Source of the DNA: Massilia sp. Root418
GTDB lineage: Bacteria > Pseudomonadota > Gammaproteobacteria > Burkholderiales > Burkholderiaceae_D
Direction: 5' to 3'
DNA length: 64,000 nucleotides
Assembly: GCF_001425265.1 (NCBI RefSeq)
Contig: NZ_LMEC01000025.1
Span: 62,305-126,304, forward strand
Made by a program: the position numbers and the translations under genes. The notes beneath the pieces were generated by a model. It had not been told where the DNA came from. It saw only the letters and a program-made list of their open reading frames with translations, and did not search any database. Below are positions 33,470 through 46,538 of the stretch, in pieces. Each line of letters opens with the position of its first letter. The first letter of the stretch is position 1.

Positions 33470-33624
33470 CTGCCACACTGAGCCGCTGGCAGGCCACACG
33501 GTTGCCGTTGCGCGGCGGGTGGCGGCCGCAGTCAAAATCCGATAAATTGATTAGGCGCGCTCCTACTTGCCGGGTCCGGCGGCAGTGGAATAATGGCCGC
33601 TCACCCAACCTAAGGAGGAATGCC

Positions 33625-34152
33625 ATGAAAGCTCAAGCGACTACCGCAGTGTTGGCCCTGCTGCTCAGTGCCGGGGCCTGGGCGCAGAACCAGGACCCGC
33701 GTGGCCAGGACCCTTACGGCAACGCCGCCGTGCAGCAGCACACCACCGATCCGCAACATGCGGACAAGCACAAGTCCAAGCAGAAAAAATCCAGTAAGCG
33801 CAACAATACCAGCGACACTGGCGACACCAGCAGAAGCATGGACCAGAACAGTTCCGGCAGCAGCGGGACCAGTGGGACCGCCGGCGGCACCGGTAGCGGC
33901 ACGTCCGGCAGCAGTGGCACCAGCGGTACCACGGGCACCGCCGGCAGCGGCACCTCCGGTACGTCGGGCAGCAGCGGTAGCACCGGCACCACTGGCAGCG
34001 GCACTACCGGTACGTCGGGCACCAGCGGCACCACGGGCACCGCCGGCAGCGGCGACCGCCCTTCGGATGTCGCGCCGATGACGCCAACTACCCGCCCGAC
34101 CGACCGGTCATCCCAGAACCCGTCCGACACCCGCACGCCGACCACCAGGTAA
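33625..34152 (+). CDS. Secreted low-complexity Ser/Gly/Thr-repeat protein
   Basis: The 175-residue protein has a signal peptide (AGAWAQ cleavage near residue 21), then a polar region rich in Asp/His/Gln, a lysine cluster (HKSKQKKSSKRNN), a long repeat of TGTSGSSGT-like units (about residues 77-145), and a Thr/Pro/Arg tail. It has no enzymatic motif. Such proteins are likely surface or matrix components, or intrinsically disordered linkers. The ATG at 33625 has AAGGAGG upstream and opens the signal peptide. It is convergent with the TonB receptor gene that ends at 34198. Confidence 0.8.
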   Translation: MKAQATTAVLALLLSAGAWAQNQDPRGQDPYGNAAVQQHTTDPQHADKHKSKQKKSSKRNNTSDTGDTSRSMDQNSSGSSGTSGTAGGTGSGTSGSSGTSGTTGTAGSGTSGTSGSSGSTGTTGSGTTGTSGTSGTTGTAGSGDRPSDVAPMTPTTRPTDRSSQNPSDTRTPTTR

Positions 34153-34197: not shown

Positions 34198-37191
34198 TCA
34201 GTACTTGTACGTCAGGCCCAGCACGAAAGTGCGGCCGGAGTGCACGTACAGCAGCGTGTCGTTGCGCTGCAGGTCACGGCCGTAGCGCAGCGGGGTGTCT
34301 GTCAGGTTCTGGCCTTCCAGGCTCACGCGCAGTTTCGGCGTGATGTTGTAGGACAGGCTGAAGTCGACACTGGTGGAGCCGTCCACCACGGTGAAGTCGT
34401 GCCCGGCCACGTCGCCCAGCACATTCAGCAGGTAGGACGAGCGGTGCGCCGCCGAGACCCGCGCGCTGAACTTCGGATCTTCGTAGAACAGCGTGATGTT
34501 GTGCGCGTTCGGCGACAGGCCGGTGAAGTTGGCGGTCTTGCTGAGCAGCTCGTTGGCCGGCGTGTTCGGATTGTCCACCCGCGTCACGTAAGTGATCTTG
34601 GAATCGACGTGGGTGTAGTTGGCCAGCAGGCCGAAGTTGCTCCACACCCCGGGCAGGAAGCTGAACGGCGCCTGCAGGTTCACCTCGAAGCCGTTCAGCG
34701 GCCCGCCCGGCGTGTTGACCTTGCGCGCCACCGTGACCACCGTGTCCGGCAGCGTCGGGCAGGCCGGCGTGCCGCCGGTGATGCTGCAACCGCCGCCGAT
34801 CAGCACCGAATCCGGCAGGCCCAGCGAGGAGAACGGCGCGCGCTCGGACACGCCCTGGATGAAGGTGTTGATCTCCTTGCGGAAATAACCCACCGACAGC
34901 AAGGCGTTCTTGGCGTAGTACCACTCGGCCTGCAGGTCGTAGGTGCGCGCGCGGATCGGGTCCAGGTTCGGATTGCCGATCGAGACCGACTGGCTTTGCG
35001 TGGTCAGGGTGGCGGTCGGCGCCAGGTCGGTGTACTCGGGGCGCGACAGCGTCTTGCCGGCCGAGAAGCGCAGCATCACGTCCTGCGGCAGCGAGGCAGT
35101 CACGTTCAGCGCCGGCAGCACGTCGCGGTACTTGTGCTCCACCGTGGCCGGCGTCAGCGCGCCATTGGCGTTGATCAGCGCGAACGAGGTGGCCTTGGTT
35201 TCTGCGCCGCGCACGCCCACGTTGCCGCGCAGGCCGACCGGGCCCACGTCGTACTTGAAGTCCACCATGCCGTACAGCGCATTGATGCCCTCTTCCACGC
35301 CGCGGTTCACCTGGCCCAGCAGGTTGTATTCCGAGCCCGGTACTTTCGAGCAGTGGCATTCGATGTCGTACACGGCGCGGAACTTGTCCAGGTCCACCGC
35401 GGCCCACGAGGTGGGCACGCCGCTGCCGCCCAGGCCGCGGCCGAAGCCGTCGATCTGGCGCGTGATGCTGGCCATGGTGGTGCCGGCGGGCAGCGCCAGG
35501 CCATTGCCGCCGGAGCCAATCTCCACGTTGGTCCAGGTGTTCTTGCGGTTTGAGACGCCGCCGCGCAAGGTGATGTTGTCGTTCACCTCGAAGCTGGCGT
35601 TGATGGCGTTGGTGCGCAGCTTGTTCTTGGTGTGCAGGTAGCGGCCCACGAACTGGCCGTGGAAGGTGCCGTCGGCCTCCTGCGGCGCGAAGGTGAACAG
35701 GTTGGGATTGGCCACGTCCATGCCGAAGTTCAGGGTGGGCACGTTGCGGTTGTTGCGGAAATCGAAGGCGAAGCCGTTCACGTTCGGATTGTCGAACTGC
35801 ACGGTGGCGCGCATCGGTTCGTCCAGGTCGGAGTTCGACACGCCGGCCAGGAAGTCCACCTTGAAGCGGTCGGTGATCTCGCGGCTGCCGGACAGCACCT
35901 GCTGGCGGAACAGCGTGGTGTACTTGTCCAGCAGGCCTTCGGTGCGGATGTCCACCGCGTTGAACTTGCCGTAGTCCCAGCTGCCGTTGCTGTCGAAGTG
36001 GGCGTCCACGATGGACGATTGCGGCTTGCCGTTGGACTGGCCCAGCGTGCGGCCGAAGGAGATGGCGGAAATGTAGTTGTCGTAGCGGTCGTTGACGAAC
36101 TTGCCGCCCATGAAGTCCAGGTTCAGCTCGGTCTTGGTGTCCGGGCGCCACTGCGCGGACGCGGTGAGGCCGGTGCGCTCGTAGTTGGTGAGCGAGCGGC
36201 GGTAGCGCGGGATGCGCGGCGCGAAGGCGCCCGAACCGGCGGCCGGACTGGCCACGGTGCCGCCGTAGTTGTCGGTGCGGCCCATCACGTCGTTGTAGGC
36301 GGCCAGGCTGGAGGTGCGCGGCACGCCGAAGCCGCAGCTGGTGGCGGTGATGCCCTTGGCCGGCGTATTGACCGGGTTTTGCGGCGTGTAGCCGAGCGGC
36401 GAGCAGAAGCCGCCGTCCTGGCTGGCGCTCAGCAGTTCAACCGCCTCGTAGCCCTCCTCCTGGATGGTGCGCTTGGAATAGGCCACCGAGGCCAGCGCGC
36501 CGATCTTGCCGATCGGCGTGTCCCAGCGGTCCGAATACAGCGCAGTCACGCGCGGCTCGGCCTTGCGCGACAGGCCGTTCCACGATTCCTGCCCGCCCAG
36601 GCTGAAGGTCCGGCCCTTGAAATCGAACGGGCGCGCGGTGCGCAGGTCCACCGTGGCGCCCAGCGAGCCTTCTTCCACGCCGGCTTCGGAGGTCTTGCGC
36701 ACTTCCAGGCTGTTGAACAGTTCCGAGGCGAACACGCTGAAGTCGAAGCCGCGCCCGCGGTTGGTGCTGCCGTTGATGTCGGACGCGCCGGTGGCGGTGA
36801 CGCCCTCGATGCCGTTGATGCGCACCCGCGTAAAGCCCGCGTTCAGGCCGCGCACGGTGATCTGCTTGCCCTCGCCGCCATCGCCGCGCGTGAGCGAAAC
36901 GCCCGGGACGCGCTGCAGCGATTCGGCCAGGTTGGCGTCCGGGAACTTGGCGATGTCCTCGGCCTTGATCACGTCGACGATGCCGTCGCTGTTCTTCTTG
37001 GTGTTCAGCGCGCTGTTCAGGCTGGCGCGGAAGCCGGTGACCACCACCACGTTGTCGTCGGCCTTGGCTTCCTGGGCTTGCGCTTGCAGCGAGGCGGCCA
37101 GCGCGAACACGGCCAGGGCGATCAGGGTGGGCTTTGATGCGGGAGAGGTACGGGTGCTGCGAGTACTGGTGCTGCGGTTCCGGCTAGTCAT
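34198..37191 (-). CDS. TonB-dependent receptor, Xanthomonas/Caulobacter carbohydrate type
   Basis: The 997-residue receptor has a signal peptide (TLIALAVFALAASLQAQAQE). Its plug domain matches the TonB-Xanth-Caul pattern: VVVVTGFRASLNSALNTKKN, GIVDVIKAEDIAKFPDANLA, ESLQRVPGVSLTRGDGGEG, QITVRGLNAGFTRVRINGIE. A long barrel ends LGLTYKY. This receptor type usually imports oligosaccharides. The ATG at 37191 follows AAGGAAA; the open frame runs further upstream to 37578 without a signal peptide. A histidine kinase gene lies upstream on the same strand. Plant cell-wall hydrolases elsewhere in the window (GH39, SGNH esterase) fit a carbohydrate role, but they are 10 kb or more away. Confidence 0.92.
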   Translation of the reverse strand: MTSRNRSTSTRSTRTSPASKPTLIALAVFALAASLQAQAQEAKADDNVVVVTGFRASLNSALNTKKNSDGIVDVIKAEDIAKFPDANLAESLQRVPGVSLTRGDGGEGKQITVRGLNAGFTRVRINGIEGVTATGASDINGSTNRGRGFDFSVFASELFNSLEVRKTSEAGVEEGSLGATVDLRTARPFDFKGRTFSLGGQESWNGLSRKAEPRVTALYSDRWDTPIGKIGALASVAYSKRTIQEEGYEAVELLSASQDGGFCSPLGYTPQNPVNTPAKGITATSCGFGVPRTSSLAAYNDVMGRTDNYGGTVASPAAGSGAFAPRIPRYRRSLTNYERTGLTASAQWRPDTKTELNLDFMGGKFVNDRYDNYISAISFGRTLGQSNGKPQSSIVDAHFDSNGSWDYGKFNAVDIRTEGLLDKYTTLFRQQVLSGSREITDRFKVDFLAGVSNSDLDEPMRATVQFDNPNVNGFAFDFRNNRNVPTLNFGMDVANPNLFTFAPQEADGTFHGQFVGRYLHTKNKLRTNAINASFEVNDNITLRGGVSNRKNTWTNVEIGSGGNGLALPAGTTMASITRQIDGFGRGLGGSGVPTSWAAVDLDKFRAVYDIECHCSKVPGSEYNLLGQVNRGVEEGINALYGMVDFKYDVGPVGLRGNVGVRGAETKATSFALINANGALTPATVEHKYRDVLPALNVTASLPQDVMLRFSAGKTLSRPEYTDLAPTATLTTQSQSVSIGNPNLDPIRARTYDLQAEWYYAKNALLSVGYFRKEINTFIQGVSERAPFSSLGLPDSVLIGGGCSITGGTPACPTLPDTVVTVARKVNTPGGPLNGFEVNLQAPFSFLPGVWSNFGLLANYTHVDSKITYVTRVDNPNTPANELLSKTANFTGLSPNAHNITLFYEDPKFSARVSAAHRSSYLLNVLGDVAGHDFTVVDGSTSVDFSLSYNITPKLRVSLEGQNLTDTPLRYGRDLQRNDTLLYVHSGRTFVLGLTYKY

Positions 37192-37327
37192 TGAATTTCC
37201 TTGTGATTTATTTGTTCGGAAATGAAGCGCGCGTCCCAACGCGATTTGGATCATATGCGGATTCATTTCGTCCGGCGTGCGCCGGCCACAAATACTCACT
37301 TTGTTGATTGAGGAAATCCCGGAATGC

Positions 37328-38476
37328 TCAAGCGGCGGTGGCTGCGCCGTGATAGGGGCGGGCGTCGAGCGGAATGTCGATGACGAAGGTGGTGCCGTCC
37401 TGTGGGTTGCTTGCAACAATGATGCTGCCGCCGTGGGCCTCGGCGGCCTTGCGCGCGAACGGCAGGCCCACGCCCCAGCCCTGCACGCCGTACTTGCCGC
37501 GCGCGGCGCGCCGGTAGAGCTGGAAGATGCTCTCGCATTCCTCGGGCGGGATCGGGTCGCCGTCGTTGTGCACCGCAATCCTGGCGCGCTCGAAGTCGCT
37601 GCTCACGCTCAGCTTGACCGGAGCGCCGGGACGGCCGTACTTGACGGCGTTGCCGACCAGGTTTTCCACAGCGCGCCGCAGCGTCTCGCGGCACCAGTGC
37701 CCGGCGACGGGCTGCGGCGGCAGGTCCAGCTCCACGCGCGAGGCGGTCTCGATGGCGGTGGCCACCTCGCGCGCCAGCTCGGCCAGGTCGAACTCGGCGA
37801 TGCGCAGGGCCAGCTTGCCGGCGCCGCCGAACACGATCCTGTCGAGCAGTTCGCAGGTCATGGTGTCTATCCTGGCGGCACTGCGCAAAATGGTCTGGGC
37901 CAGCTGGCGCACGTCGGGATCGCCGGCCATGCGCTCGATCAGCTCGGCAGCCATGCGCGCGTTCGACAGCGGCGTGCGCAGGTCGTGCGTGATGGCGGCA
38001 ATGAACTGCTCGCGCAGCGCGGCCTGCACCGCAGCAAAGGCGTTGGCGCTGTCGCGCATCATGTTGTCGAGGCAGTTGGCCACCAGCGCGCGCTGCGCCA
38101 GGTCCAGCGGCGCGCCGCTTTGTTCCATCTCGGCAAACAGCACCCGCTTGAACAGCTGCAGCTCGTGAATCAGGGTGGTGATGTCGTACGGCGTCAGGCG
38201 CGCCCGCTCACCGCCGTGCTCGTTTGCCAGCGTGGTCAGGTCGCTGATGGCGTGGTCGCGCTCCCCTTCCGTCAGCAGCAGGGCCACGGTATCGACAATG
38301 GCGGGCAAGGTGTTGCCGAGGATGGCCAGGTGCAGCGGGCCGGCCTTGGGCACGGACTTGCGCATGGTATCCATCCACGCGTTGACCACCGCGTCGCGGC
38401 GGGCCATGAGCGCGCGCGTGGCCGGCGCCAGTCCGGGCTGGCTCGGATCGCTTGTGCCTGTCAGATTGGAGCTCAT
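37328..38476 (-). CDS. Cytoplasmic sensor histidine kinase
   Basis: The 382-residue protein has no membrane segment. An all-helical N-terminal region (about residues 20-145) precedes the phosphoacceptor motif FIAAITHDLRTPLSNARM, with His164. The catalytic ATPase domain has the N box RAVENLVGNAVKYG, HNDGDPIPPEECESIFQLY and the G2 motif GWGVGLPFARKAAEAHGG. No response regulator lies next to it, so it is an orphan kinase. The input domain is helical and resembles the RsbRD-type N-terminal region. Start choice: an ATG at 38476 without a clear ribosome-binding site; the open frame extends to 38686. It is divergent from the RelA/SpoT-like gene, 172 bases apart. Confidence 0.88.
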   Translation of the reverse strand: MSSNLTGTSDPSQPGLAPATRALMARRDAVVNAWMDTMRKSVPKAGPLHLAILGNTLPAIVDTVALLLTEGERDHAISDLTTLANEHGGERARLTPYDITTLIHELQLFKRVLFAEMEQSGAPLDLAQRALVANCLDNMMRDSANAFAAVQAALREQFIAAITHDLRTPLSNARMAAELIERMAGDPDVRQLAQTILRSAARIDTMTCELLDRIVFGGAGKLALRIAEFDLAELAREVATAIETASRVELDLPPQPVAGHWCRETLRRAVENLVGNAVKYGRPGAPVKLSVSSDFERARIAVHNDGDPIPPEECESIFQLYRRAARGKYGVQGWGVGLPFARKAAEAHGGSIIVASNPQDGTTFVIDIPLDARPYHGAATAA

Positions 38477-38648
38477 GGGATAAATATAGCGCGCTGCCGG
38501 CCAGTGCGCCGCCCGTTTGGCGGGTGCTGCAACGCAGCAACAGCGACGCCGCGCAGCGGTCAATTTGCAACGCGGGGCCGCGTCCGATTGACCGCCGCCA
38601 GCGGCAGGGGGATACTTGCTTATCGGATAGCGCTGATGGCATAAGGAC

Positions 38649-39857
38649 ATGACCGAACTGCATGCTTCACTCAAGTGCGCGCACAAGTTCTCGCTGAACT
38701 GGGGCTACCTCAACGCCATTGCCAGCGGCGTGTCCGCCATCGACCTGGGCGCGCTGGCCTTGCGCAACCTGCACGACGCGCGCCAGTTCGTGCTGGAGTA
38801 CGGCTTCGACCTGGCCCAGCCGGCCGCCCCCGCCGTGATCGCCCGCGCACACCGGGAAGCGGTGGCCTTTATCGCCAGCACCTTCCTGGCGCCGGGGCAG
38901 GCAGCGTTGATCCCGGCCGAGGTGCGCGCGCCGGACGACCCGCTGCAGCTGCTGGTGTATGCGTCGCGGCGCGGCCTGCAGGCCGATGCGCTGCGCATGT
39001 GGTCGTGCGCGGTGCTCAAGGTCATGCACGGCATCTTTTACATCGACAACAATCTGAAGCTGCGCCACTTCAACACCATCCGCGAGCAGGTGTTCGCCTC
39101 GCTGGACGAGGTGATACGCTGCGACGACGGCCAGTACTTCCTGACGCACGGCGACACCTGTTTGCCGCTGCTGCAGTTCGACCGCAAGAACAACAAGGGC
39201 CGCGCCAGCATCCTGCTCAAGCTGCTGCAGAAAGCGGCCTACCTGGCGGCCGACGTGTACGACCACCTGGGCGTGCGCATGATTTTCAATACCCGTTTCG
39301 AGTGCCTGCTGGCCTTGCAGACGCTGCAGCGCGCGCACCTGCTGTCGGTGACCAACGTCGATTCGCAGCGCACCCGCAACACCCTGCTGGACATGGAGGC
39401 GGCCAAGGAGGTGTTCTGCAAGTACCGGCCCATGCTGGAGCGCAGCGAGCACTATCCGGCCGGGCTGCTGCGGCGCATGGACGAGGAGCTGCTGGCGCTG
39501 TCGGCCCAGCAGACCCGCAGCGACAACCCGCACAGCGGCGAAGGCTTCAGCAGCATCCAGGTGACGGTGCGCAAAATGATCCACTTGCACGCCAACGACG
39601 CCGGCGGCAGCAGCCTGCCCCTGTTTGCCGCGCAGGACGCCGCGGCGGCCGAGTCGGCCGAACCGGACTACGACGTGGGCTTTTTCTTTGAGTATGAGAT
39701 CCAGCTGATGGACAAGGCCAGCCATGACCGCAGCCTGAGCGGACCGGCCAGCCACGAAGCATACAAGCGGCGCCAGGTGGACACGGCGCGCCTGCGCGTG
39801 CTGGGCCGCGAACTGCTGCGCTGGATGGATGAGCACAGCGGCGTGGCTGCCGCCTGA
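38649..39857 (+). CDS. Protein with divergent RelA/SpoT-like synthetase motifs
   Basis: I recognise this 402-residue soluble protein only by motif order. VYDHLGVRMIFNT (residues 203-215) resembles the 'DLxGxR' strand of the RelA/SpoT nucleotidyltransferase. GFSSIQVTVRKMIHL (299-313) corresponds to 'GYxSIH'. FEYEIQLMDKASHD (347-360) followed by GPASHEAYKRRQ (365-376) matches 'vEIQIRT..M...aE.G.AaHw.YK'. Thus Asp205 and Glu350 align with the two metal/ATP-binding acidic residues of (p)ppGpp synthetases, while the histidine of SIH is Gln304. No HD hydrolase or TGS domain is present. It may belong to an uncharacterised family such as TIGR04552; that name is from memory. The start has AAGGAC six bases upstream. 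Two periplasmic binding protein genes follow (11 and 4 bases apart), so all three are probably co-transcribed. Confidence 0.7.
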   Translation: MTELHASLKCAHKFSLNWGYLNAIASGVSAIDLGALALRNLHDARQFVLEYGFDLAQPAAPAVIARAHREAVAFIASTFLAPGQAALIPAEVRAPDDPLQLLVYASRRGLQADALRMWSCAVLKVMHGIFYIDNNLKLRHFNTIREQVFASLDEVIRCDDGQYFLTHGDTCLPLLQFDRKNNKGRASILLKLLQKAAYLAADVYDHLGVRMIFNTRFECLLALQTLQRAHLLSVTNVDSQRTRNTLLDMEAAKEVFCKYRPMLERSEHYPAGLLRRMDEELLALSAQQTRSDNPHSGEGFSSIQVTVRKMIHLHANDAGGSSLPLFAAQDAAAAESAEPDYDVGFFFEYEIQLMDKASHDRSLSGPASHEAYKRRQVDTARLRVLGRELLRWMDEHSGVAAA

Positions 39858-39867
39858 ACGGACCGCC

Positions 39868-40701
39868 ATGCCGCCGCCACGCATATCTGCAGCCGCTTTC
39901 TGCGCCGCTTTCGTCAGGGTTCTCGCCAAGGTGATCGCCAAGGTTCCCGCCACGGCGCTCGCCGCGGTGCTTGGCTGCGGCGCGCTGTCCCCGGCCACGG
40001 CCGCCCCGCTGCTGCTGCGCACGGCGGCGCAGGACAACAACACCCTCAAGTACGAGGTGGGCGCCAGGCGCAAGGGCATCTGCGTGGAGGTGATCAAGGC
40101 TGTCGAGCAGGTGGCGCCGGGCTTGCGCTTCACCGGCTGGACCCAGCCCATGTCGCTGCCGCGCATCGAATCGGCGCTGGCGGAAGGACAGCTGGACGTG
40201 TTCTGCGCGCTGATCCGCACCGGCGCGCGCGAAGCGAAATTCGGCTACATCGACGTGCCGGTGTACACGGTGCGCCACAAGATCGCCGTGCGCGCGGACG
40301 ACAAGGTGGCCGTAAAGACCCTGGACGACATCCGCAAGCTGGGGCCGGACAGCGTGATCATCGTATCCAGGGGCAGCGCCTACGCCAGCCAGCTGGCGGG
40401 CGAGCCCGGACTGCGCCTGGACGCCAGCAGCAGCGACCCGGAAGTCAACCTGCGCAAGCTGATGAACCGGCGCGGGCGCTTTTTTTACCACGCCGAAGGC
40501 GCGCTGCGGCGCACCATCGCGGACGAGCACCTGACCGGCATGGTCAAGCTGCTGCCGGCTGTGTTCAAGGAGGAGCCGCTGTACTTCGCGGTGTCGCGCA
40601 CGCTGGCGCCGGCCACTGCCGCGCAGCTCAGGCACGCGCTGCAGACGCTGGCCGAGCAGGGCGAGCTGCAGCGTATCTACGCCAGCTACAAGGACGACTG
40701 A
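39868..40701 (+). CDS. Periplasmic substrate-binding protein (SBP_bac_3 type), first
   Basis: The 277-residue protein has a long signal peptide with two hydrophobic stretches (to about residue 45, SPATAAP). The body matches the extracellular solute-binding family 3: ICVEVIKAVEQVAPGLRFTGWT, LPRIESALAEGQLDVFCALIR, a KTLDDIRKLG segment, LRKLMNRRGRFFYHAEGAL and LYFAVSR. Family members bind amino acids or act as sensory inputs. There are no ABC permease or ATPase genes here, so it may serve signalling. It lies 10 bases after the RelA/SpoT-like gene and 3 bases before a second binding protein. Confidence 0.82.
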   Translation: MPPPRISAAAFCAAFVRVLAKVIAKVPATALAAVLGCGALSPATAAPLLLRTAAQDNNTLKYEVGARRKGICVEVIKAVEQVAPGLRFTGWTQPMSLPRIESALAEGQLDVFCALIRTGAREAKFGYIDVPVYTVRHKIAVRADDKVAVKTLDDIRKLGPDSVIIVSRGSAYASQLAGEPGLRLDASSSDPEVNLRKLMNRRGRFFYHAEGALRRTIADEHLTGMVKLLPAVFKEEPLYFAVSRTLAPATAAQLRHALQTLAEQGELQRIYASYKDD

Positions 40702-40704
40702 GAC

Positions 40705-41619
40705 ATGCCGCGCCAGGCTGCTTCCCGCTCCGCGCGCGTCCGCGCCGCCCTTGCGGCGTTCGCGCCGGCTGCGCTGCCGGCGTTGCCAGGTGCGTTGCCA
40801 GCTCCGTTGCCAGCTGCGTTGCTGGCTGCGTTGCTGGCGGCCGGCGCGGCGCACGGCGGCGAGCCCGGGGCTGCCACGCCGCAGCCGGGCCCACCGGGCC
40901 CATCCGCGCCGCTGGTCATGTGCTACGAGGACGTGGAGCAGCGCCCCTGGAGTTCGCCGGACGCCAGCGGCCTGAATTTCGAGCTGCTGCGGCGGGTGGA
41001 AAAACAGCTGGGCGAGCGCTTCGTCTACGCCCCCAAGCCCTGGCGCCGCTGCATCGAAGAGCTGCGCCTGGGCACAGTGGACGCGGTGGTGGCCGCCGCC
41101 GACGCGAAATCGCGGCGCAGCTTTGCGGCCTACCCGCTGCGGCCCGACGGCAGCGCCGATCCGGCGCGCGCGCTGTATTCGGACAGCGTCAACGTGTTCC
41201 TGCGCGCGGGAGGGCGCGGCAGCTGGGACGGACATACCCTGGTCGCGCCCAACCAGGAAGTGGCGGTGCAGTCGGGCTACCTGATCAGCAGCGTGCTGCG
41301 CGAGCGCGGCTACCGCCCGCGCGAACTGGTGAAATCGGCCGAGGACGCGCTGCGCCTGCTGCAAACCGGGATGTTCGACGTCGCCCTGCTGCAAGGGGCC
41401 GAGGCCAGCCGCCTGGCCGTCAGCGACCCGCGCTTCCAGGGCAAGGTGGTCCAGACGGGGCCGCCGTACTGGGTGCTGCCGCTGCACCTGGCCTTCAACC
41501 GCGCGGCCTACCGCCGCAACCCGCAGCGCGCGCACGCCATCTGGGAAGCCATCGCGGCGGCGCGCGCGTCGGCCGACTATCGCAGGCTGGCCGCCGAAGC
41601 CGGCGTACCCGAGCCCTAG
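40705..41619 (+). CDS. Periplasmic substrate-binding protein (SBP_bac_3 type), second
   Basis: The 304-residue protein has an unusually long alanine/proline/leucine-rich N-terminus (about residues 1-60) built partly from five 12-base tandem repeats, then a family-3 solute-binding fold: VMCYEDVEQRPW, LNFELLRRVEKQLGERFVYAPKPWRRCIEEL, GTVDAVVAAADA, LLQTGMFDVALLQGAEAS and PYWVLPLHLAF. It is a paralogue of the preceding gene in the same operon, and both follow the RelA/SpoT-like gene. No transporter partner is present. The odd repeat-built leader may still act as a signal peptide. Confidence 0.8.
   Translation: MPRQAASRSARVRAALAAFAPAALPALPGALPAPLPAALLAALLAAGAAHGGEPGAATPQPGPPGPSAPLVMCYEDVEQRPWSSPDASGLNFELLRRVEKQLGERFVYAPKPWRRCIEELRLGTVDAVVAAADAKSRRSFAAYPLRPDGSADPARALYSDSVNVFLRAGGRGSWDGHTLVAPNQEVAVQSGYLISSVLRERGYRPRELVKSAEDALRLLQTGMFDVALLQGAEASRLAVSDPRFQGKVVQTGPPYWVLPLHLAFNRAAYRRNPQRAHAIWEAIAAARASADYRRLAAEAGVPEP
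40780..40839 (+). repeat. Five in-frame 12-base tandem repeats in a signal-peptide region
   Basis: Units GCGTTGCCAGGT, GCGTTGCCAGCT, CCGTTGCCAGCT, GCGTTGCTGGCT and GCGTTGCTGGCG run head to tail from 40780 to 40839. A degenerate sixth unit begins near 40771. Each unit is four codons, so slippage would change the length of the leader by four residues and keep the frame. Confidence 0.7.
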
Positions 41620-41683: not shown

Positions 41684-42418
41684 TTGCAACAGCGCCGGCC
41701 GTTCTTGGATACAATATGGCTCCATGACCACCCCACCGCCACGGCCTTGATCGACGGCCGCCTCTCGCTGACCACGCCGGAAGGCACCCGCCTGCTGCTC
41801 ACCCCGGCCGGCCCGGCGCCGCGCGCCTGGGCCTGGGCGCTGGACGCCACCCTGTGGCTCAGCTTCATGGGTCTGGCCGGCTGGCTGCTGAGCGGGCCGC
41901 GCATGGCGCAGGGCGTGCTGGCGGTGCTGGCCTTCCTCAGCTACTGGGGCTATCCCGTCATCTGCGAAGTCTATTTCCAGGGCCAGACCATCGGCAAGCG
42001 CGCGCTCGGCCTGCAGGTGCGGCGCGACAACGGCCTGCCCGTGGGCTGGCGCGAATCGGCGCTGCGCAACCTGCTGCTGGTGGCGGACTTCCTGCCGCTG
42101 GCCTATGCCACCGGCCTGGCCTGCATGCTGTACGACCGCCAGTTCCGCCGCCTGGGCGACATCGTGGCCGGCACCCTGGTGGTGTACCGCGACCGGCCGC
42201 CGGCCCGCCCCACCGTGCGCGAGGCCGCGCCGCTGCCGCTGCCCTTCCCGCTCACGTCCGCCCAGCAGCGCGCGCTGGCCGACCTGTTCGACCGCGAACA
42301 GGGCCTGCCGCCGGCGCGGCTCGAAGAGCTGGGCAGCATCGCCGAGCCGCTCACCGGCACCATCGGCGCAGCCTCGCTGGAACGCCTGCGCGCCTACGCG
42401 GCGGGGCTCAAGCAATGA
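41684..42418 (+). CDS. RDD family membrane protein, first gene of the MoxR/DUF58 operon
   Basis: The roughly 220-244-residue protein has an RDD domain: RAWAWALDATLWLSF, YFQGQTIGKRALGLQVRRDNG, WRESALRNLLLVADFLPLAY and RRLGDIVAGTLVVYRDR, with two to three membrane helices and a polar C-terminus. RDD proteins are thought to be small transporters or chaperones of membrane complexes. The start is uncertain: no ATG lies in frame, so TTG at 41684, 41705 or 41747 are the choices, and none has a good ribosome-binding site. It starts a tight six-gene operon and ends 10 bases before SpoIIM. Confidence 0.8.
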   Translation: MQQRRPFLDTIWLHDHPTATALIDGRLSLTTPEGTRLLLTPAGPAPRAWAWALDATLWLSFMGLAGWLLSGPRMAQGVLAVLAFLSYWGYPVICEVYFQGQTIGKRALGLQVRRDNGLPVGWRESALRNLLLVADFLPLAYATGLACMLYDRQFRRLGDIVAGTLVVYRDRPPARPTVREAAPLPLPFPLTSAQQRALADLFDREQGLPPARLEELGSIAEPLTGTIGAASLERLRAYAAGLKQ

Positions 42419-42428
42419 GGCCGGCGCC

Positions 42429-43403
42429 ATGAAGCAGACCCAGTTCGAACAGCGGCACGCGCCGCTGTGGGAGGCGGTCGACGCCATCCTGCACAACCGC
42501 TCGGACGATCCGGCCGCCCTGCCCGCGCTGTACCGGCGCCTGTGCCAGTGCCTGGCGCTGGCCGGCCAGCGCGGCTATTCGCCGGCGCTGACCGACTACC
42601 TGCACGCGCAGGCGGCGGCCTGCCACCTGCGCCTGTACGGCAGCGCGGCCGAGCGCCCGCGCGCGCTGCTGCAGTGGCTGCTGGTGGACTTCCCCTGCCG
42701 CGTGCGCGCCGAATGGCGTTTGCTGCTGGTGGCGGCGCTGGCGGTGTTCGGCGTGGCGCTGGCACTGGGCCTGCTGGTGTGGCAGCAGCCGCACTGGGCG
42801 CACAGCTTCATCGATCCGGCGCAGCTGGAAAAATACCGCCAGATGTACCGGCCCGGCCGCATCGGCCTGGGGCGCGGCCAGGAAGGCGACCTGCAGATGT
42901 TTGGCCACTACATCTGGAACAATGTGTCGATCTGCTTCCGCACCTTCGCCGGCGGCATCTTCGGCGGCCTGCCGTCGCTGCTCAGCCTGGCCTTCAACGG
43001 CATGCACATGGGCGTGATCGCCAGCTGGCTGAGCATGGACCCGCTCACGCGCACCAATTTCTGGTCCTTCGTGGTGACGCATTCCAGTTTCGAGATCACC
43101 GGCCTGGTGCTGGCCGGCCTGTCCGGCATGCGCCTCGGGCTGGCGCTGATCGCGCCGGGCCGCCTGAGCCGGCGCCACGCGCTGCACGCCACCAGCCGCG
43201 CCATGTTCCCCGTGATCGTGGGCGCCGCCGTGCTGACGCTGCTGGCCGCCTTCGTGGAAGCGTTCTGGTCCGCCAGCACCGCGGTGCCGCCGCAGGTGAA
43301 GTACGCGGTGGGCGGCGTGTGCTGGACGGCGGTGATCGCCTTTTTCGCGCTGGCCGGCCGCGGCCGGGGCACGCACAGCGGGGGAGCCCTGCGTGCGGAT
43401 TGA
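42429..43403 (+). CDS. SpoIIM (stage II sporulation protein M) family membrane protein
   Basis: The 324-residue protein has about six membrane helices and the SpoIIM/DUF95 signature: YIWNNVSICFRTFAGGIFGG, LSLAFNGMHMGVI and THSSFEITGLVLAGLSGMRLG. In this operon context (next to DUF4129, DUF4350, MoxR and DUF58), the family is found in many non-sporulating bacteria, so the name does not mean sporulation. The ATG at 42429 is 10 bases after the RDD gene. The last 11 bases overlap the next gene. Confidence 0.9.
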   Translation: MKQTQFEQRHAPLWEAVDAILHNRSDDPAALPALYRRLCQCLALAGQRGYSPALTDYLHAQAAACHLRLYGSAAERPRALLQWLLVDFPCRVRAEWRLLLVAALAVFGVALALGLLVWQQPHWAHSFIDPAQLEKYRQMYRPGRIGLGRGQEGDLQMFGHYIWNNVSICFRTFAGGIFGGLPSLLSLAFNGMHMGVIASWLSMDPLTRTNFWSFVVTHSSFEITGLVLAGLSGMRLGLALIAPGRLSRRHALHATSRAMFPVIVGAAVLTLLAAFVEAFWSASTAVPPQVKYAVGGVCWTAVIAFFALAGRGRGTHSGGALRAD

Positions 43404-45135
43404 CAAGCTGCAGATCGCGCTGCGCCCGCGCCCGGCGCCGCAGGCCCTGGACCTGGGCTTCGCGCTGCTGCGCGCGCACGCCGGGCCGGTGTACAAAACC
43501 TGGCTGGCGCTGTGGCTGCCCTTGTGCGGGCTGGCGCTGCTCCTGATCTGGGCGGCGCCGTCGTGGGCCGCCTTGTGGATGTTCCTGCCGTGGTGGCTGC
43601 GGCCCTTGCTGGAGCGCGGCCCGCTGTACGTGCTGTCGCGCCAGGTGTTCGGCGAGGACGTGACGTGGCGCCAGGCGCTGCGGGCCTGGCCGCGCCAGCT
43701 GGGCGGCGGCTGGTTCCGGCTGATGACCTGGTGGCGGCTGTTCATGCCGGGGCGCGGGCTGTACCAGCCGATCTGGCAGCTGGAGCAGGCGCGCGGCGCC
43801 ACCGCCAGCGAACGGCGGCACGCCATCGGCCGCAACGGCACCGGCGCGGCAGCCTACCGCTTCGGCCTGGCCTGCGCGCACTTCGAGGCGGTGCTGAACT
43901 TCGGCCTGATGGCCCTGGTGGGCCTGTTCCTCAGCGATGGCCCCGCCGTCAATCCCTTCGCCATTTTCAGCAAAGGCGCCAGCGGCACCTGGCTCGACCT
44001 GGTGGCCATGGCGGCTTACGCGGTGGCGGCCGGCATCGTGGGGCCGGTTTACACGGCCTGCTGTTTCACCCTGTACCTGAACCGGCGTGCCACGCTGGAG
44101 GCATGGGACATCGAGATCACGCTGCGCCAGATCCAGGCGCCGGCCGCGCGGCACCAGCCGCAGCCGCAGGCCGGCCATGCCAGCCCGCTGCTGCTTGGCT
44201 GGCTGGCCATGCTGGCATTGGCGGCGGCGCTGGCCGTGGCCCTGCCGGCCGCCCCGGGCCGCGCCGAGCCGCTGCAGGCGGCCGCGCCGCCGCCCGCGCC
44301 GGGCCCGGACCGCATCCGCTGCGCGCGCCCCCCGCACTTGCAGAACCCGATCGGCAAGCATGCCCCCGCGCGCAGCGCGGAGCAGGCCGCGCTGCAGCAG
44401 GAAATCAAGCGCCTGTACGACAGCGACGACCTGCGCGGCTACAAGTGCGAGGATAGCTGGCACCTCAAGGATTTCGATGCGCCCGAACCCGAAAAGCCGC
44501 TCAAGATGCCGGACCTGAGCCTGCTGGCACTGGCCATCAAGGTGCTGCTGATCGCCGGCGGCGTGGTCCTGCTGGCGTGGCTGCTGTACCGCTACCGGGG
44601 CAAGTTCGCCTGGCTGTTGCCGGCGCCGGCCGTGATGGCGGCAACCGAGATCGCGGGCCTGGACATCCGCGCCGAAAGCCTGCCGGCCGACGTGGCGGAC
44701 GCCGTGCGCAGCCTGTGGGAGCAGGGAGAACGGCGCGGCGCGCTGGCCTTGCTGTACCGCGCCACCCTGTCGCGCCTGGTGCAGCAGGACGGGCTGCAGC
44801 TGGCCCAGGGCGCCACAGAGGGCGAGTGCCTGCGCATGGCGCAGCAAGCCGGCCTGGCGCCGGCGCGCTACGGCATCGCCGCCACCGCCACCACGCTGTG
44901 GCTGAACGGCGCCTATGGCGCGCGCTGGCCCGACAGCGCCGCGCTGTACGCGGCCTGCGACGCGTGGCGGGCGCAATTCGACGCGGCCACCGGCGCACAT
45001 GCAGGCGCGCATGCAGGCACGCCCGCTGGTGCGGCCGTTGGTGCGCTGGCTAGTGCGCCAGCTAATGTGCACACCGAGGCCCACGGCAAGGCGCACGCCG
45101 CGGAAGCCACGACGCCGCGGGAGCACGGCCGGTGA
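43393..45135 (+). CDS. DUF4129 domain membrane protein
   Basis: The 580-residue protein has N-terminal membrane helices (about residues 35-75 and 150-250), a single central helix after LPAAPGR (near 275-295), a periplasmic segment rich in charged residues, another helix (LSLLALAIKVLLIAGGVVLL near 380-395), and a soluble C-terminal DUF4129 domain (ALALLYRATLSRLVQQDGLQ). The end is an alanine/histidine/glycine-rich tail (GAHAGAHAGTPAG). The start is GTG at 43393, after GGGGGAG and overlapping SpoIIM by 11 bases. The last 4 bases (GTGA) overlap the next gene, so translation is coupled throughout. Confidence 0.85.
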   Translation: MRIDKLQIALRPRPAPQALDLGFALLRAHAGPVYKTWLALWLPLCGLALLLIWAAPSWAALWMFLPWWLRPLLERGPLYVLSRQVFGEDVTWRQALRAWPRQLGGGWFRLMTWWRLFMPGRGLYQPIWQLEQARGATASERRHAIGRNGTGAAAYRFGLACAHFEAVLNFGLMALVGLFLSDGPAVNPFAIFSKGASGTWLDLVAMAAYAVAAGIVGPVYTACCFTLYLNRRATLEAWDIEITLRQIQAPAARHQPQPQAGHASPLLLGWLAMLALAAALAVALPAAPGRAEPLQAAAPPPAPGPDRIRCARPPHLQNPIGKHAPARSAEQAALQQEIKRLYDSDDLRGYKCEDSWHLKDFDAPEPEKPLKMPDLSLLALAIKVLLIAGGVVLLAWLLYRYRGKFAWLLPAPAVMAATEIAGLDIRAESLPADVADAVRSLWEQGERRGALALLYRATLSRLVQQDGLQLAQGATEGECLRMAQQAGLAPARYGIAATATTLWLNGAYGARWPDSAALYAACDAWRAQFDAATGAHAGAHAGTPAGAAVGALASAPANVHTEAHGKAHAAEATTPREHGR

Positions 45136-46524
45136 GCGCCGCAGGGCAAGCCATGCCGCGCCGCCCGGGCCGCAGGGCCGGCATACGCGCGCTGGTCGCG
45201 CTGGGCTGCCTGGCGGCGCTGGCGGGCTGCGTGGCGCTCTGGTACGCCGTCATGGAGCGCTCGCCGAACGCGGTCACTTATATCTCGCCGCTGGCCATCG
45301 ACAACCCCATGCTGGCCGCCGGCACGCTGCTCAAGCAGCACGGCTACACCGTCAGCGTGGAAAAGAGCCTGAGCGGCGCCGGCCTGGGCAAACTGCCCGG
45401 CGGTACGCTGATCCTGGCCGATAACAGCGGCCAGGTCGACCCGGTACAGGCGGCCCAGCTGCTGGACTGGGTCCGGCGCGGCAACACCGTCGTGATGCAG
45501 CCCAAGTGGGTGGCGCTGCACTACGGCGACGACGGCAAGCCGGACCGCCCCGGCGCGCGCAAGCGCCTGGCGCCGCTGACGGAACCGGACCCGCTGGGCG
45601 CGCGTTTCGGCGTTGCCCTGAGCTACCGCAACAAGCTGCGCGCCAGCTGCGACACGGTCAACGGCGCCATCGCGGCGCTGCCGCCGGAGGACGACGAGGA
45701 CGGCCAGGACGACGAGGACGAGGACCAGGAAGAGGACCAGCATCCGGAGCCGGCGCAGGAGCAGGCGCGGCAACGCGCCCCCGGAAAACCATCGGGCGCG
45801 GTGGACAAGCCGAAAGAGCCGCGCCAGCTCACCTGCGTCCCCCTGCCCGGCGCCGCCTATCCGCTCGCGCTGGACACCGGCACCGAAGTGCTGCAGACCA
45901 TACGCGAAGGCCGCCAGCCCGCCTGGAGCGACTTCGACGGCATGTCCGTGCGCGTGTACGCCGAGGGCCGCGGCCACATCGCCATGGTGTCCGACAATTA
46001 CTTCAACAACCAGCGCCTGCCGCGCTTCGACCACGCCGAACTGCTGCTGGGCCTTACTCGCCTGAACCAGCAGGGCCGCAACGTCATGGTGGTGCTGCAC
46101 GCCGACGCCTCGCCCTGGTACGCCTTGCTGTGGCGCGCCGCGTGGATGCCGCTGACCGCGCTGGCCCTGCTGCTTGCGCTGCTGCTGTGGCGCGCGGCGC
46201 GCCGTTTCGGTCCCCTGCTGCCCGAGCCCTCCGGCGAGCGCCGCTCGCTGCTGGAGCACGTGGAGGCGAGCGGCAACTGGCTGTGGCGCGCCAAGGGCGG
46301 GCGCGAGGTGCTGCTGGCCGCCGCGCGCCAGGAGACCCTCGCCCTGCTGCGGCGCCGCGCGCCGGAACTGCAGCCGCTTGCAGAGGATGACAAGGCGGCG
46401 CGCCTGGCGCGCCTGTGCAACGCCCAGCCGGCCGAGATGCGCAGCGCGCTGGCCGGGCCGGCCGCGCCCCACCCGGCCGCCTTCACGCGCCAGATCCAGC
46501 TACTCCAACAAGTGAGAACCCATT

Positions 46525-46538
<14 letters not shown>
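45132..46538 (+). CDS. DUF4350 domain membrane-anchored protein
   Basis: The 468-residue protein has an N-terminal membrane segment (about residues 19-40), a periplasmic DUF4350 domain (AAGTLLKQHGYTVSVEKSL, LPGGTLILADNSGQVDPVQ, QLLDWVRRGNTVVM), a highly acidic insert (residues 184-212, mostly Asp/Glu/Gln), and a second membrane segment near residue 340. A cytosolic tail resembling the BatD/Aer C-terminus follows. The acidic insert is not a usual part of this family and may be lineage-specific. Starts as GTG overlapping the previous stop (GTGA). It ends 14 bases inside MoxR. Confidence 0.82.

Follow-up and report, generated by a model that had tools for sequence, protein, structure and literature searches.

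A predicted RelA/SpoT-like synthetase domain in the TIGR04562/TIGR04552 protein family of Massilia sp. Root418 and its relatives

The closest described relatives of the protein analyzed here are the long RelA/SpoT homologues (RSHs; RelA, SpoT and Rel), the small alarmone synthetases (SASs) RelP (SAS2) and SAS1, of ~200 aa, and the toxSAS proteins FaRel2 and CapRel. A further SAS subgroup, bdRel, is listed for beta-, delta- and, in Table 2 of the source, gamma-proteobacteria, with an empty description there (PMC3153485), and no further relevant paper on bdRel was found in the literature library searched. We analyzed a 64,000-nt stretch of the genome of Massilia sp. Root418 (contig NZ_LMEC01000025.1, positions 62,305 to 126,304; hereafter the window) and compared with these systems the product of a 402-aa open reading frame (ORF) at 38649–39857 on the plus strand, which belongs to the family described by the models TIGR04562 and TIGR04552. 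As with the long RSHs, a SYNTH fold was predicted by structural modelling (VIA-align against B. subtilis Rel, 8acu: Z 9.3, root-mean-square deviation 3.1, 142 residues aligned), and the SI..K, DxxGxR, ExQ and H..YK motifs follow one another in the same order. Unlike long RSHs, the protein has no Pfam-matched HD hydrolase, TGS or ACT domain, since RelA_SpoT was the only match at E ≤ 1; a model-made first-pass annotation of the window had likewise noted that a hydrolase domain is lacking. It also differs from long RSHs in having Gln304 for His, Met-Asp for Arg-Thr, ~50 extra residues and a different N-terminal region. Chains of RelP (SAS2) and SAS1 (6ex0, 6fgj and 5ded) were the top rows of a Foldseek search with the model and gave VIA-align Z scores of 7.0–9.0 over ~146–160 residues, whereas the greater length of the window protein and the same motif changes set it apart from them. 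The modelled fold also resembles that of the toxSAS proteins (Z 5.2 for FaRel2 and 6.4 for CapRel); as a possible difference, no antitoxin-like neighbour was common across the TIGR04562 loci by crude gene calls. With bdRel, which was compared by distribution only, the taxonomic spread is compatible, as the family occurs in beta-proteobacterial loci, in a second order of this GTDB class and, according to one report, in a Bdellovibrio (PMC9888234). As far as the listed distribution goes, TIGR04562/TIGR04552 may be identical with bdRel as described by Atkinson et al. 2011 (PMC3153485). In the library searched by the two family numbers, the Bdellovibrio report was the one paper to mention the family, and an RSH synthetase role for it was not described.

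The ORF is genuine, and its coordinates and the numbering of Asp205, Gln304 and Glu350 were given correctly in the first-pass annotation. Its product matched TIGR04562 with 406.7 bits (cutoff 140, E 9e-122, profile positions 1–355 of 356) and TIGR04552 with 403.4 bits (cutoff 125, positions 2–351 of 352), two curated NCBIfam models that cover the same stretch and carry no functional name. The protein is accordingly a full-length member of this family, with nothing found that sets it apart from other members, and the family was already catalogued, which had not been mentioned before. The gene is under purifying selection, as the ratios of nonsynonymous to synonymous substitution rates (dN/dS), computed with a counting script, were 0.17–0.36 in 6/6 pairs with relatives. 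By eye, the N-terminus does not resemble a signal peptide, so that the protein should be cytosolic. Residues 1–125 (38649–39023) form a helical region without a recognised fold, and residues ~126–375 a predicted RelA/SpoT-like nucleotidyltransferase domain. A promoter scan returned one weak sigma-70-like site at 38588–38616 (9/12 matching, 0.3 expected by chance).

We examined the relationship to RelA/SpoT proteins at the sequence level. The Pfam RelA_SpoT model (PF04607) matched residues 183–233 of the window protein with 19.3 bits (E 0.0015), and it was also the best match in 8/8 further family members (E 2.5e-6 to 0.025), in three of which the match spanned nearly the whole domain. One of these eight, L081, which is 28% identical, exceeded the cutoff of 27 bits (28.2 bits, profile positions 3–112 of 113), and L103 scored 24.0 bits over positions 3–111. 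In the reverse direction, the TIGR04552 profile reached five RSH ORFs of 726–736 aa (E 1.3e-4 to 8.8e-4 per genome). As a control, a thin hidden Markov model (HMM) was built on the SYNTH domains of six long RSHs (6/7 RSH sequences, L058 being left out; a single genus supplied five of the six), and sequences were ranked by whole-sequence E value. Seven of eight family members outranked all 2,000 shuffles and eight reversals, with E values of 0.0021–1.8 for members and 2.4 for the best shuffle; four members were clear (0.0021–0.011) and the last two marginal. When scored by this HMM, L103 did not beat the shuffles.

An AlphaFold2 model of the protein (predicted local distance difference test, pLDDT, 75; predicted template modelling score 0.66) was compared with known structures. 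In the Foldseek search against the PDB, ranks 1–42 were all RelA/SpoT or SAS chains, with a best E of 3.4e-3; among them we count 3l9d, labelled only smu.1046c in the Foldseek rows, which we take to be such a chain. VIA-align placed RSH, SAS or CapRel chains at all of ranks 1–25 (Z 9.3–6.2, model residues ~126–375), followed by terminal transferase at 6.1 and then DNA polymerase beta, which belong to the same nucleotidyltransferase fold class. The comparison with RelA/SpoT structures that had been suggested in the first-pass annotation, made on the predicted model, was in favour of RSH/SAS chains, and it supports a SYNTH nucleotidyltransferase fold for the C-terminal two thirds of the protein. 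In a fold search against BFVD (best E 0.044), four of the ten top rows were named RelA/SpoT. The N-terminal region alone (pLDDT 68) had no clear match in Foldseek (best E 1.4) or VIA-align (best Z 5.5, to RbcX), and no HD-hydrolase rows appeared in these fold searches; the region may still be a remote HD relative.

We next consider the putative active site in a table of 58 sequences, namely 54 of the 55 TIGR04562 loci collected (L056 was left out), the window protein, and L081, L102 and L103; an alignment, A1, comprises 37/55 loci and the window. Along the plus strand, the first motif is K-x-R-x-S-I-x-x-K-x-x-x-K (codons 183–195, 39195–39233), which aligned to the RSH K...SI..K motif and in which Lys183, Ser187, Lys191 and Lys195 are invariant in 58/58. 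The ATP-site-like part of it, K183-x-R-x-S187-I-x-x-K191, had not been noted previously. It is followed by DHLGVR (codons 205–210, 39261–39278; Asp205, Gly208 and Arg210 invariant in all 58), the family signature RTRNTLLD (codons 241–248, 39369–39392; Arg241, Arg243, Asn244 and Asp248 likewise), GFSSIQ, the equivalent of GYxSLH (codons 299–304, 39543–39560; residue 300 is Phe in 51/58 and Tyr in 7/58), YEIQLMD (codons 349–355, 39693–39713; Glu350, Gln352 and Asp355 invariant in 58/58) and GPASHEAYK (codons 365–373, 39741–39767; Gly365, His369, Tyr372 and Lys373 again invariant throughout). The order of DHLGVR, GFSSIQ, YEIQLMD and GPASHEAYK is thus as it was first read. In the HMM alignment, Asp205 coincides with the Asp of YDxxGxR, the metal-binding acid of RelA/SpoT, and Glu350 with the catalytic Glu found in ExQIR. 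Both acidic residues therefore appear to be kept, in register with the RSH HMM and in 58/58 sequences, as had been proposed. It was also right that the GYxSIH histidine is replaced by Gln304 in the window protein; across the table, residue 304 is Gln in 57/58 and His in L103, and since one member keeps the histidine, Gln-for-His does not define the family. After EIQ, the family has Met-Asp and L103 has Leu-Asp. A further feature that had gone unmentioned is the ~50 extra residues between the DxxGxR and GF motifs. This longer stretch carries the invariant R-x-R-N-x-L-x-D (RTRNTLLD in the window protein) behind the DxxGxR helix, and we conjecture that it takes the place of RxKD in long RSHs. For SaEAS, a small alarmone synthetase, a change of Asp121 is stated to abolish activity, with Glu182 and Gln184 given as ATP-binding residues, in a paper whose main text contains no Massilia, Duganella, Bdellovibrio, Myxococc or TIGR (PMC12691689). 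These three residues would correspond to Asp205, Glu350 and Gln352 of the window protein. Judging from the residues conserved, the pyrophosphate-transferase site is likely to be intact and working.

Several observations weigh against an assignment to the RelA/SpoT enzymes. The window protein falls under the gathering cutoff of Pfam RelA_SpoT (19.3 versus 27), and a sequence search of the PDB with it gave 13 matches (best E 0.34), none of them an RSH. Comparisons between thin profiles were weak: in one, the motifs matched in the right order with an E of 0.024 and a probability of 2%, and in a second, just the last motif was covered (E 0.051). No Foldseek match was under E 0.001, and the model is only moderate, with residues 19–36, 197–203 and 318–341 under a pLDDT of 50. 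Moreover, 54/58 of the tabulated sequences are close relatives, so that the invariance rests on the four divergent ones (L053, L081, L102 and L103), and the changes of the GYxSLH histidine to Gln304 and of the EIQIRT Arg-Thr to Met-Asp are departures from RSHs. With all tests combined, it is near certain that residues ~126–375 are homologous to the SYNTH domain, although no single test on the window protein alone reaches that level.

We consider it reasonably probable that the protein is a cytosolic accessory RSH-type enzyme, which makes a (p)ppGpp-like alarmone beside the two long RelA/SpoT proteins that the host genome also encodes. The SYNTH-fold domain (residues ~126–375) would move pyrophosphate from ATP, the presumed donor, to the 3'-OH of a purine nucleotide, with a guanine nucleotide as the putative acceptor, and the (p)ppGpp-like product of such an active enzyme would add to the pool from the two long RSHs. 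Regulation of the enzyme or choice of the acceptor might fall to the helical N-terminal region and the insert. A function that can be tested is thereby proposed for a family that is curated yet unexplained, and beta-proteobacteria with two long RSHs would gain a third enzyme of this type. Should the enzyme be active, strains of these genera in which relA and spoT alone are deleted might not be ppGpp-null.

The TIGR04562 gene is single-copy in the Massilia sp. Root418 genome and was found in 48/60 genomes of the same genus and in 50/392 of a wider family sample. In other families of the order, 40 genomes were sampled and none had it above the cutoff (one sub-cutoff match was seen). It was present in 2/398 genomes of a phylum sample, one of which was the window's own, and in 2/247 genomes from a different order within the class, of which one had already been counted in the phylum sample. 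The 55 named loci are from the following groups: Pseudoduganella, Duganella, Rugamonas, Massilia, Janthinobacterium, unclassified Oxalobacteraceae/Burkholderiaceae and one Curvibacter metagenome-assembled genome. A search of plasmids gave no match. Occurrence in phages was rejected, as the one match was in a record with bacterial content. In this record, MW495066.1 ('Microcystis phage MaAM05', 273,876 bases), the gene lies among bacterial housekeeping genes in two stretches (L103 and L104), where we saw ispG, trpS, fliA, rpsA, rplU, rpmA, ruvA, nusG, rplK, glyS, secDF and a type 3 secretin; the record appears to be a bacterial contig filed under the wrong label. Frame changes or stops disrupt the gene in L056 (5001–6142, Massilia sp. 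H-1), where the frame is lost after 57 codons, and in genome G712; sequencing error and decay are both possible causes in these copies. A small indel in the TIGR04552 gene DOE51_RS08710 is listed for an evolved Bdellovibrio sp. NC01 population (B) in coculture with prey (PMC9888234), and possibly reflects loss under selection.

We also weighed a more far-reaching possibility, that TIGR04562/TIGR04552 is a functionally distinct RSH branch with its own acceptor or product, which gives the Massilia/Duganella group a third alarmone system besides RelA and SpoT. The R-x-R-N-x-L-x-D insert, the substitutions to Gln and Met-Asp and the new N-terminal regulatory region would then determine the specificity. 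We regard this possibility as tentative and rather doubtful.

A toxin of the toxSAS type appears less likely than the accessory enzyme. A different acceptor could result from the departures in GYxSLH and EIQIRT, from the insert and from the additional N-terminal region, and both CapRel and FaRel2 are among the fold matches. However, long RSHs and SASs outscored the toxSAS rows, although rows less than 1 Z apart are ties, and PADLOC gave no match for the window protein. (Among defence models, L103 had one weak match, to PDC-S33, E 0.018.) The gene is present as a single copy in 48/60 same-genus genomes, which is not a sporadic pattern. The commonest downstream partner, a protein with the motif PVDKSYRK, is encoded on the same strand in 24/55 loci, mostly as the next gene by crude gene calls, and could be thought of as an antitoxin; however, it is missing from 31/55 loci and looks exported, and is therefore a poor candidate. 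This protein has ~260–350 aa and a signal-like start (L020 6405–7412, L022 6156–7199, L029 6264–7310 and others), and no Pfam match was found in 4/4 copies scanned. No single adjacent gene was common to most of the 55 loci, for which genes were called from GC content by codon position, so that single calls may err. An antitoxin could possibly be fused to the 402-aa protein itself, as in CapRel.

It is improbable that the protein is an RSH relative that has lost catalysis and serves as a regulator by binding a nucleotide or a partner. The sub-threshold Pfam score and the replacement of His by Gln304 and of Arg-Thr by Met-Asp would fit such a loss; however, the retention of Asp205, Glu350, Gln352, Lys183 and Lys191 in 58/58 sequences and of an aromatic residue at position 300 would be unexpected without catalysis.

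The first-pass annotation had combined a divergent RelA/SpoT-like synthetase with a signalling operon, of which the fold and both acids were supported and the operon with solute-binding proteins (SBPs) was not. Two SBP_bac_3-like genes do follow the 402-aa gene on the plus strand within 11 bases, in agreement with that annotation: SBP1 (39868–40701, E 4e-9, with a signal-peptide-like N-terminus by eye) after 10 bases, and SBP2 (40705–41619, E 3.8e-6, 27.1 bits versus a cutoff of 26.4) after a further 3 bases. For SBP1, the ATG at 39868 was taken, as translation from the ATG further upstream, at 39829, would begin within the 402-aa gene. A histidine kinase gene (37328–38476, minus strand, start chosen; HisKA, HATPase_c and a sub-threshold RsbRD_N) is indeed divergent beside the 402-aa gene, at 172 bases. 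The absence of a transporter was likewise borne out, with no ABC permease or ATPase among seven neighbouring proteins scanned, a scan that did not take in the minus-strand ORF 34198–37578. We searched 3–5 kb downstream in the 55 loci for this context with tblastn (E 1e-6). The SBP pair was found in five loci, all close relatives whose copies are 83–95% identical, whereas L004 (86%) lacks it, and lineages other than close relatives have different downstream genes. The kinase is adjacent to the gene in two loci (L002 and L003), and a third match, in L053, has 28% identity and is ~2.6 kb away. An operon in which the two SBPs couple the enzyme to external signals is therefore very unlikely: the spacing is tight and the trio is kept in those five loci, with and without the upstream kinase, but the pair is absent from the other 50, and the same gene order did not extend to more distant genomes. 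The host genome has 20 SBP_bac_3 matches, 17 above the cutoff, including another close pair. Moreover, an exported SBP and a cytosolic enzyme would be on opposite sides of the membrane, so that contact would need a membrane partner, and no linking receptor was recognised among the seven neighbours scanned. The SBP and kinase operon was rejected as a conserved system, and the adjacency is best read as a local arrangement. The other close SBP_bac_3 pair lies at 230949–232476 of the same contig as the window. Finally, chance resemblance of motifs without RelA/SpoT homology would suit the weak window-only scores (PDB search, Pfam and profile-profile), but is hardly credible given L081 above the Pfam cutoff, the consistent fold list and the shuffle control.

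Downstream of SBP2, four genes lie in a row at 41684–46538, encoding in order an RDD protein, a SpoIIM-like protein, a 580-aa protein without a Pfam match and a DUF4350 protein. Related DUF4350 genes were found upstream of the TIGR04562 gene in 7/55 loci, and other neighbours across the loci include beta-lactamase-fold, ParA-like, GGDEF/EAL and DUF4197 proteins. Four ORF clusters seen in most loci at the TIGR04562 gene were rejected as other frames of that gene. A fifth cluster, present in 31/55 loci, was discarded as a mixture of downstream ORFs of several kinds, of which 39/107 are antisense to two large minus-strand genes 1.2–5.5 kb away (peptidase M1 in 17 loci and subtilase in 13). Elsewhere in the window, the product of the ORF at 33502–34152 consists mostly of Ser-Gly-Thr repeats after a signal-like stretch.

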